This document shows, one piece after another, positions 1,609-28,486 of a stretch of DNA of 34,509 nucleotides. How positions within the stretch are numbered: position 1 is the stretch's first letter; every line of letters begins with the position of its first letter. Under the pieces are notes generated by a model. The model saw nothing but the letters and a program-made list of their open reading frames with translations. It was not told where the DNA came from and made no database searches. The DNA comes from Desulfohalobiaceae bacterium. GTDB lineage: Bacteria > Desulfobacterota > Desulfovibrionia > Desulfovibrionales > Desulfothermaceae. A program made the translations under genes and the position numbers. The stretch covers positions 1-34,509 of the forward strand of contig JALWFY010000116.1 of NCBI GenBank assembly GCA_027013815.1, in the 5' to 3' direction.

Positions 1609-1822
1609 TAAGCTTTTACTCCCAAAAACGTGAAAAAAATTTACGTTTTTTATGGAAGTTAATTCATTGTATATATTAGGCTAAGGGCAAAGGGCTAATA
1701 ACAAAAGGGCTTAGAACCTTTTCTTTATCATCTCTTGTTCTTTTAGCCCTTTACCTTTACCCTTTAGCTTTTTATCACCTTCCATACCAACATGCAGTTT
1801 TAGAACTTTAGTTTGTTAAAAT
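1609..1822 (-). repeat. Composite intergenic repeat, copy 1
   Basis: Contains the A hairpin AAAAACGTG...TTTACGTTTTT (1624-1650), the block TTGTATAT(A) near 1667-1675, a heptad arm (GGCTAAG, GGCAAAG, GGCTAAT at 1679-1699), an inverted heptad arm (TTTAGCCC...CCCTTTAGC near 1742-1770) and a tail ending TTTAGTTTGTTAAAA (1808-1822) that matches the tail of copy 3. The AT palindrome (C module) present in copies 2, 3 and 5 is missing here. With the next block it fills the lon/MoxR spacer. Strand refers to the gene it precedes. Confidence 0.7.
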
Positions 1823-8092: not shown

Positions 8093-8180
8093 TGCGAGAG
8101 GGGAGACTCGAACTCCCACGGCCTAAATATGGGCCACTGGATCCTAAGTCCAGTGCGTCTACCAGTTCCGCCACTCTCGC
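8093..8180 (-). tRNA. tRNA-Leu (anticodon UAG)
   Basis: 88 nt on the minus strand. Acceptor stem GCGAGAG pairs with CTCTCGC, discriminator A at 8093. D-arm TGGCGGAACTGGTAGACGC, anticodon stem CTGGA/TCCAG with loop CTTAGGA, giving anticodon UAG (reads CUN). A long variable arm (GGCCC...GGCC) and T-arm GGGAGTTCGAGTCTCCC identify a class II leucine tRNA. CCA is not encoded. It is followed by an intrinsic terminator and then tig, a neighbour pair found in many bacteria. Confidence 0.97.
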
Positions 8181-11483: not shown

Positions 11484-11650
11484 AAGCTTTTATTCTCAAA
11501 AACGATAAAAAATTTTGTTTTTTCTGAATTCTAACTCCTGGTATATAAGGCGAAGGGCTATTTTTTAATTTTAATTTTGAATTATAAGTTCTAAATTTTG
11601 AATGAAAAAAGGATTAATCCAAAATCCAAAATTCAACATCCAAAATTATT
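11484..11650 (-). repeat. Composite intergenic repeat, copy 2
   Basis: A hairpin AAAAACG...TTTGTTTTT (11498-11522, diverged), GTATATAAGG (11541-11550), one heptad arm GGCGAAGGGCTA (11549-11560) and the AATTTTG palindrome C (11572-11648). The inverted heptad arm and tail are absent. It sits in the dnaX-ybaB spacer, about 100 bp upstream of the ybaB ATG, with the A hairpin on the ybaB side. Confidence 0.7.
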
Positions 11651-11666
11651 ACTAATTTAACAGGGT

Positions 11667-16652: not shown

Positions 16653-16896
16653 TAAGCCTTTTCTTGCAAAAACGTGAAAAAAATTTACGTTTTTTCTAAA
16701 GCCTAACTCATTGTATATAAGGGCGAAGGGCTATTTTTTAATTTTAATTTTGAATTATAAATTCTAAATTTTGAATGAAAAAAGAATTAATCCAAAATCC
16801 AAAATTCAACATCTAATATATTAATGGTTTTCGCCTTTTGCCTTTCGCCGCCTTTCATATTAACCTGCAATTTCCCGGAGTTTAGTTTGTTTAAAA
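16653..16896 (-). repeat. Composite intergenic repeat, copy 3 (most complete)
   Basis: In order from the mtnA side: A hairpin AAAAACGTG...TTTACGTTTTT (16668-16695), TTGTATATAA (16711-16720), heptad arm GGGCGAAGGGCTA, C palindrome built of AATTTTGAAT words (16745-16818), inverted heptad arm CGCCTTTTGCCTTTCGCC (near 16831-16848), and tail TATTAACCTGCAATTT...TTTAGTTTGTTTAAAA (to 16896). It fills the gatB-mtnA spacer, and the A hairpin is about 40 bp from the mtnA ATG. Confidence 0.75.
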
Positions 16897-20520: not shown

Positions 20521-20760
20521 AAATTAATCCAAAATTCAAAATTCAACATCCAAAATTATATTAAACTGAAATTCCGAAAATTGCAGGTTAATATAAAAGA
20601 TGGCAAAAGGCTAAAGGCGAAAGGCAAAAGGTATAGGAGGAGTTAAAATGCGAATTCTTCCCTTTAGCCTTTAGCCCTTCGCCCTTAGCCTAAGGTAAAC
20701 AAGGACTTAGGATTTAGAAGAAACGTAAATTTTTTTCACATTTTTGAAATAAAAAGCATA
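20521..20760 (+). repeat. Composite intergenic repeat, copy 4 (inverted relative to the others)
   Basis: Half of the C palindrome (20521-20558), tail block AATTGCAGGTTAATAT (20579-20594), heptads GGCAAAA, GGCTAAA, GGCGAAA, GGCAAAA (20602-20629), a 30-nt loop, inverted heptads from 20660 to 20690, then the A hairpin AAACGTAAA...TTCACATTTTT (20720-20745). It lies in the divergent nadK/NUDIX spacer with the A hairpin about 25 bp from the ATG of the plus-strand gene. Confidence 0.7.
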
Positions 20761-24709: not shown

Positions 24710-24718
24710 ATTAAGCTT

Positions 24719-24918
24719 TTTTATGAAAAACTTGAAAAAAATTTACGTTTTTCCTAAATCCTAGGTCATTGTATATAAAGGCGAAGGGCTATTTTTTAAT
24801 TTTGAATTATAAATTCTAAATTTTGAATGAAAAAAGGATTAATCCAAAATCCAAAATTCAACATCCAAAATTATATTAATGGTTTTCGCCTTTAGCCTCA
24901 TATGCCTTTTGCCGTCTT
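24719..24918 (-). repeat. Composite intergenic repeat, copy 5 (main part)
   Basis: A hairpin AAAAACTTG...TTTACGTTTTT (24725-24752), TTGTATATAA (24769-24778), heptad arm AGGCGAAGGGCTA, C palindrome (24797-24873) and inverted heptads TTTTCGCCTTTAGCC...GCCTTTTGCCG. The repeat is then interrupted at about 24918 by the BOX-like element and resumes at 25028 with TAACCTGCAATTTT. It lies between mreB and the suhB-like gene, with the A hairpin facing suhB. Confidence 0.7.
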
Positions 24919-25027
24919 AGCGGAACTTCGTTCCGCTTACTGCTTACGCATATTTTTTAATAAGGATTTATTCCTTATTTTAAAATTTGGCCAATGGCCA
25001 AAGTAAAGCGAAACTTCGTTTCGCTTT
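24919..25027 (-). repeat. BOX-like element, intact copy (P1-P3-P2-P5-P1 on the minus strand)
   Basis: Five palindromes in a row. In plus-strand order: AGCGGAAC/GTTCCGCT (24919-24937), TGC-TTAC-GCA (24941-24950), AATAAGGA/TCCTTATT (24959-24979), TTTGGCCA/TGGCCAAA (24986-25002), AAAGCGAAAC/GTTTCGCTTT (25005-25027). All arms pair perfectly. Read on the minus strand, the order and length match the plus-strand array at 28377-28486. It interrupts composite repeat copy 5. No coding capacity. Confidence 0.8.
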
Positions 25028-25060
25028 AACCTGCAATTTTCAAAACTTCAGATTGATATA
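25028..25060 (-). repeat. Composite intergenic repeat copy 5, tail continued after the BOX-like insertion
   Basis: TAACCTGCAATTTT at 25027-25040 continues the tail module seen uninterrupted in copies 3 and 4. The following 25061-25229 is AT-rich with one phased repeat (separate entry) and an AATTTTG-type block near 25160-25210. Confidence 0.6.
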
Positions 25061-28171: not shown

Positions 28172-28181
28172 TTCCACTCCT

Positions 28182-28486
28182 AAAGCGGAGCTTTGCCCCG
28201 CTTTATCTTGGCCTTTCAGGCCAACTTTAATAAGGAATTTTATGATAATTTTGAATTATGGATTATGGATTTTGAATTAAAAATAAAATGTTATAGTGGT
28301 CGTGGTTAACTGAATATTAATACAAAATTCAAAATTTAAAATCCAAAATTTTTTATCATAAAAGGCGTAAGCCCTTAAAGTGAAGCAAAGCTTCAACTTT
28401 ATCGTGGCCCTTTGGGCCATATTTAATAAGGAATAAATTCCTTATCATAGGCGTAAGCCCTAAGTGGAACTCTGTTCCACTTAGGG
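28182..28486 (+). repeat. Tandem BOX-like palindrome array in the metX-metW spacer
   Basis: Plus-strand order: P1 (28182-28204, one mismatch), P3 TTGGCCT/AGGCCAA (28208-28224), left half of P2 (28228-28235), an AT-rich inverted repeat (28238-28363), P5 GGC-GTAA-GCC (28364-28373), P1 (28377-28400, one bulge), P3 TGGCCC/GGGCCA (28405-28419), P2 (28426-28445), P5 (28450-28459), P1 (28458-28486, perfect 13-bp arms). The last P1 overlaps the metX stop codon. The pattern is two P1-P3-P2-P5 units closed by P1. Confidence 0.8.
28238..28363. repeat. AT-rich inverted-repeat element with 11-bp ends, inside the BOX-like array
   Basis: Perfect inverted ends TTTTATGATAA (28238-28248) and TTATCATAAAA (28353-28363) enclose AATTTTGAATT-type words on the left and their inverse (CAAAATTCAAAATTTAAAAT) on the right. 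It replaces or splits P2 of the first BOX-like unit. It is related in word content to the C module of the composite repeats and to 6292-6393. Non-coding. Confidence 0.6.

Follow-up and report, generated by a model that had tools for sequence, protein, structure and literature searches.

A composite repeat between suhB and mreB

The window, a complete contig (C116) of 34,509 nucleotides, belongs to an uncultured, sulfate-reducer-like bacterium represented by a 2.59-Mb metagenome-assembled genome (MAG) of 219 contigs with an estimated completeness of ~95%; its congeneric sister species comprise, among others, MAGs that were deposited under the names Desulfohalobiaceae (JAMOQN01) and Desulfobacterales (JAMOPG01). 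The spacer between suhB and mreB (PF00459 and PF06723) holds a composite repeat, here called copy 5 (24715-25055, plus strand). In two sister species the same spacer measures ~26 bp (G002) and ~2 bp (G003) and contains neither the composite nor the palindrome block described below, so copy 5 is lineage-specific at this locus at the level of the genus. The initial annotation had proposed aligning this spacer with relatives lacking the block; the comparison did yield two species without the whole composite, but not a pair of alleles in which a composite occurs with and without it. A search of the window with Rfam covariance models at the gathering threshold returned a tRNA only (8093-8180, minus strand, 88 nt in the match) and no family matching composite or block.

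Copy 5 opens with a left end (L; 24715..24778), which starts GCTTTTTTATGAAAAACTTGAAAAAAATTTACGTTTTTCC, carries a subterminal hairpin and is identical in kind to a terminus that lies 3′ of a 540-aa gene family in other genomes. The interior (24779..24915) consists of a heptad array, an AT-rich module of type 1 (24791-24882) and inverted heptads ending in GCCGTC. The tail is split as originally described: GCCGTCTT (24911-24918) is followed by a run of hairpins, which measures 108 bp (24919-25026), and TAACCTGCAATTTT resumes from 25027. This run is the palindrome block, in copy 5 of subtype I, and it stands in place of the TTTCATA of block-less copies. It comprises hairpin A (24919..24937; AGCGGAAC-TTC-GTTCCGCT), with compensatory variants in relatives, the short palindrome B (24941..24950; TGCTTACGCA), hairpins C (24959..24979; AATAAGGATTTATTCCTTATT) and D (24986..25002; TTTGGCCAATGGCCAAA), and hairpin A′ (25004..25028; TAAAGCGAAACTTCGTTTCGCTTTA), where the compensatory signal across relatives is strongest. 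The right end (R; 25026..25055) reads TTAACCTGCAATTTTCAAAACTTCAGATTG, and all of these features lie on the plus strand. Folded as RNA, the block has a z of -7.8, with 0 of 200 shuffles as strong, and no terminator-like T tract was found within it.

Four further copies lie in the window: copy 1, degenerate and block-less (1612..1815, plus strand; CACCTTCCATACCAACATGCAG); copy 2, truncated to L and middle without R (11486..11660, plus); copy 3, block-less (16656..16889, plus; GCCGCCTTTCATATTAACCTGCAATTT); and copy 4, block-less with a minimal interior (20562..20757, minus; GCCATCTTTTATATTAACCTGCAATTT). A second palindromic cluster at 28176-28484 contains one divergent, stand-alone relative of the block (28375..28484, minus, 73% over 110 bp) and one split relative, which has AT-rich repeat sequence within its hairpin C region. 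Across the genome we found 47 matches to the composite, at least 40 to L, and 64 to the R-end pattern compared to 0 for a reversed control. Extraction gave 53 L..R elements, a few of them spurious or block-internal; the canonical ones span 164-368 bp, and none of the 53 overlaps a called ORF. Roughly 69 composite right ends could be classified, ~18 with the block (14 complete, the others contig-edge, truncated or collapsed) and ~51 without; the automated classification of 69 R ends scored one collapsed block (L054, contig C197) as absent and missed contig C204, which has no R. At ≥93% identity the block occurs 15 times, always within a composite and three times at a contig end. The copy on C88 is truncated, and on C193 and C197 the block has collapsed to a single hairpin, the outcome to be expected if a deletion joined its first and last hairpins, which are similar. 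We did not find the block in 40 related genomes, plasmids or phages, nor an exact match in viral contigs. At one other locus (L186; G000:C82:500-3200) two composites lie in tandem, ~22 bp apart and one behind the other.

Between co-directional genes the composite is typically antisense, with R beside the upstream stop codon (mostly 0-36 bp away) and L toward the downstream start (29:4, p = 1e-5). The bias covers copies 1, 3 and 5 of the window (1612-1815, 16656-16889 and 24715-25055) together with 26 other loci, and may reflect a preferred type of target, a mechanism that distinguishes the strands, or selection.

The block junction and stand-alone relatives

Copies 3 and 4 had been described as running straight from the inverted heptads into TTAACC, and thus as a natural empty site for comparison with copy 5. 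They do carry the same tail without hairpins, but a short segment intervenes, the junctions being GCCGCC-TTTCATA-TTAACC in copy 3 and GCCATC-TTTTATA-TTAACC in copy 4. Since these ~7 bp (TTTCATA) are absent from copy 5, the block replaces a short segment and the block-less copies are not clean empty sites. The suggested target-site duplication (TSD) at the TTAA-like junction is likewise missing, as we found no duplication flanking the block there. The same junction recurs in all block-bearing composites: full block copies read GCCxxCT[T/A]AGCG...CGCTTTAACC, with variants on contigs C141 (CGTTTTAACC) and C147 (TTTAAGC), and nearly all block-less copies read GCCxxCTTTCATATTAACC. Degenerate composites such as that at 1612-1815, presumably the oldest, lack the block, and its absence is thus most likely the ancestral state. 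Nor are block-less copies deletion scars, which in copies 3 and 4 would have spoken against the original proposal, since loss of the block could not recreate the same TTTCATA.

Relatives of the block that stand alone are at most 83% identical to it and have the hairpin order A, B, C, D, A′ in common, though the 3′ hairpin of the composite block is unlike theirs. One of them cleanly interrupts a rhuM-like gene (...NIFES | GELERD..., the right piece matching PF13310 with E 9e-16). Judged against the protein family this would amount to a nearly exact empty site, with a boundary ambiguity of no more than ~1 bp in this single case; the insertion introduces stop codons and breaks the frame. Other stand-alone relatives lie at the junctions between decayed genes, which presumably resemble IS3 and IS256 transposases. 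Among 15 relatives, compared with no correction for kinship, pairing is kept through two-sided changes in 10 cells of hairpin A and 23 of A′ (0 of 1000 shuffles reach as much pairing in either hairpin), a compensatory pattern that palindrome self-repair can also yield.

Element ends and the 540-aa gene family

The ends of the composite recur outside this genome. The sister species G003 holds R ends and L..R elements, among them a full element of ~1.09 kb with a decayed ORF on contig C195. The decayed ORF led to an intact 540-aa homolog in G217 (L218:526-2148). The L hairpin end (..CACGTTTTTGAAgggAAAAGC) immediately follows the 3′ end of this gene in members of four genera, and L flanks members of the family in G003, G141, G217, G362 and G287. 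On the other side, the exact R core AAACTAAAGTTCCGAAA lies 5′ of the gene in G141, and R is also 5′ in the decayed G003 elements, giving an order of end, gene and end. Since its ends lie on either side of that gene, the interpretation that fits the composite best is a putative MITE-like element, non-autonomous and derived from a transposon of no established class, and from the position of the gene we infer that the 540-aa protein is a candidate transposase.

Members of the family have 507-546 residues, with 19-25% identity to the first member and invariant residues in common (for example D21, Y150, E259 and E341). Sequence searches against Pfam, NCBIfam, PHROGs and the PDB gave only weak matches to winged-helix and regulator proteins, a single, partial viral homolog was found, and no intact member was found in the bacterium's own genome. 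The family (L218:526-2148 and L229-L238) is widespread, and distant homologs annotated as hypothetical proteins occur on plasmids of Rhodococcus, Paraburkholderia and Mycobacterium.

The flanks of the composites are constrained, with TA[A/T] 5′ of L and TA close after R. A search for target-site duplications in 48 elements, covering offsets and lengths of 3-6 and permuting left and right flanks, found no excess of k-mer matches; an apparent 5-bp duplication (AATAT) was dismissed as chance in AT-rich flanks. Resemblance between the termini, judged by eye, is weak (TTTC-AAAAACgTG / TTCCGAAAACtGC). We also considered integron attC sites, in view of a TTRRRY-like flank and a cassette-like array in G002, and rejected the idea as L and R are both conserved and flank one gene.

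Two further occurrences of the L hairpin were noted. On contig C153 of G002 (L161:2810-4800), a 78-bp direct repeat with the hairpin inside it occurs in two identical copies, which enclose a 1.9-kb stretch with genes for a Gp49-like (HigB-type) toxin, an HTH antitoxin and a SecB-like chaperone, possibly a mobilised toxin-antitoxin-chaperone cargo. In a Bacteroidales MAG, from another phylum, the exact 25-mer of the hairpin core appears as an inverted pair (L167, 2935-2959 and 5354-5378), which may have arisen by convergence between AT-rich sequences or may mark a related element.

Age and probable exchange of the interior modules

The block combines freely with different backgrounds, occurring next to all four middle types (0, 1, 2 and 3) and all the main R types (CAAT, CAGT and CAGAT), and block-less copies are found on every middle type and R type that carries it. 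The independence of block and R is incomplete, as subtype I occurs only with R type CAAT (5/5). Presence or absence of the same block at a fixed site, in ~18 against ~51 right ends, supports the earlier suggestion that it spreads as a unit. When 12 complete block copies are compared without gaps, the mean pairwise difference is 2.7% in the block, 15.7% in R and 10.4% in L, and singletons number 7/1152 in the block compared to 25/708 in the ends (Fisher p = 4e-6). Copy 5 itself has 5 private changes in 59 end positions and 0 in 96 block positions (p = 0.007), in agreement with the proposal that the block is younger than copy 5. A similar contrast is seen for the type-1 AT-rich module, where ten copies differ by 1.2% within the module, 12% in R and 22% in L, though the last value may still contain alignment slips. 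The low divergence of interiors relative to ends supports the view that block and interiors are either younger than the ends or homogenised relative to their host copies.

The strongest caveat is that metagenome assembly can smooth repeat interiors and mimic old ends around young interiors, and homogenisation in situ or such smoothing would produce much the same divergence pattern, including that of copy 5. The block-bearing composite is known from one genome only, a MAG of short-read type in 219 contigs with three block copies at contig ends, and metagenome assemblers merge low-coverage variants. We nevertheless regard an age difference created entirely by collapse of interiors to a consensus as decidedly unlikely: private changes persist in both left and right halves of the block (L006, L033, L041, L042 and L045), which argues that any smoothing was incomplete, most of the block lies within read length of a unique right flank, and smoothing cannot generate copies with and without the block that differ in their junctions.

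The block might instead have entered one ancestral composite, with all block-bearing copies, copy 5 included, being later transpositions, and with the block as old as copy 5 at its site but better conserved through structural constraint. The junction common to all block copies, the restriction of subtype I to R type CAAT, and the compensatory changes in A and A′, which point to constraint or to palindromes being repaired on their own template, would all fit such a history. It is nonetheless unlikely, given that the ends of block-bearing composites are nearly as diverged as those of block-less ones (L 14% and 18%, R 15% and 17%, respectively, all inflated by alignment slips in A/T-rich hairpins), that the block is found with four middle types, and that the non-palindromic type-1 modules are equally little diverged, making constraint on the block alone an insufficient explanation. 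That the block itself moves, transposing into copy 5 as the initial annotation implied and inserting site-specifically in the composite tail with 7 bp replaced each time, is very improbable. Its stand-alone relatives at other loci, one of them cleanly within the rhuM-like gene, speak for it, but the present version was never found outside composites and differs from those relatives in its 3′ hairpin, no TSD is present, an identical junction with the same 7-bp loss is unexpected for repeated insertion, and the genome lacks a Y1 (RAYT-type) transposase. Considered jointly, the fixed junction, the mixed backgrounds and the low divergence fit exchange by recombination between dispersed composites better than they fit fresh transposition.

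The account that we consider probable is thus one of a mobile element 164-368 bp long, MITE-like and non-autonomous, whose L and R ends would belong to a transposon family with full-length members carrying the ~540-aa gene between R and L, and whose interior is built from modules that can be exchanged, namely heptads, an AT-rich module of one of several types and, in some copies, the 108-bp block. A stand-alone palindromic element would have been captured once in a composite, at the site that separates the inverted heptads from R, and ~7 bp would have been lost there. We infer that the block then spread between dispersed composites, which could occur by recombination or gene conversion through their shared flanks; any transposition of a composite that carries the block would move it as well. 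In copy 5 the block was most likely gained after the composite itself had inserted between mreB and suhB.

Several known repeat systems resemble parts of this picture. Rickettsia palindromic elements are likewise palindromic units of ~100-150 bp, and one relative of our block also lies within a gene; they are known for in-frame insertion in ORFs, whereas the insertion in the rhuM-like gene breaks the frame. The STRR heptad repeats of cyanobacteria resemble the AT-rich and GCC heptads of the composite interior, though here the heptads are filler between conserved element ends. REP, REPIN and BIME sequences associated with RAYT are, as here, intergenic palindromes in mosaic arrays (PMC3116915, PMC2817692); we rejected identity with them since a search of the 95%-complete genome for Y1 transposases (Y1_Tnp, PF01797; RAYT) gave no match, while control genomes did match. 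Pneumococcal BOX elements are also modular hairpin repeats with variable modules and few copies in neighbouring species (PMC3049150), a comparison that covered the modular principle: the modules differ, the hairpin block of the composite has a fixed position within another repeat, and BOX elements have terminal inverted repeats and TSDs (PMC3049150). Closest are the type II MITEs of prokaryotes, such as Chunjie of Geobacter and QMITE of Coxiella (PMC10969869), which like the composite are short (below ~500 bp), AT-rich, non-coding, multi-copy and intergenic, resemble a gene-bearing element at their ends only, and include nested or truncated copies. The composite differs in having no clear terminal inverted repeat, no detected TSD and an unclassified partner protein, and its interiors are less diverged than its ends, the reverse of what is usual.

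More broadly, and as a tentative suggestion that we hold with rather less confidence, the composite may be the non-autonomous arm of an undescribed, TSD-less transposon family, mobilised by a protein of 500-545 aa (an N-terminal domain of unknown fold and a C-terminal winged helix) without relatives in Pfam, NCBIfam or the PDB. Its miniatures might evolve from the inside out, with interior cassettes, the captured palindrome cluster included, being swept through dispersed copies by recombination as the ends age in place. Such a system would offer a datable, module-by-module record of how a mosaic repeat is assembled, in which a miniature transposon captures a palindromic unit that spreads without new insertions. 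It would also tie the repeat ends to a widespread, unnamed family of candidate transposases, and so make the question of their mobility testable.
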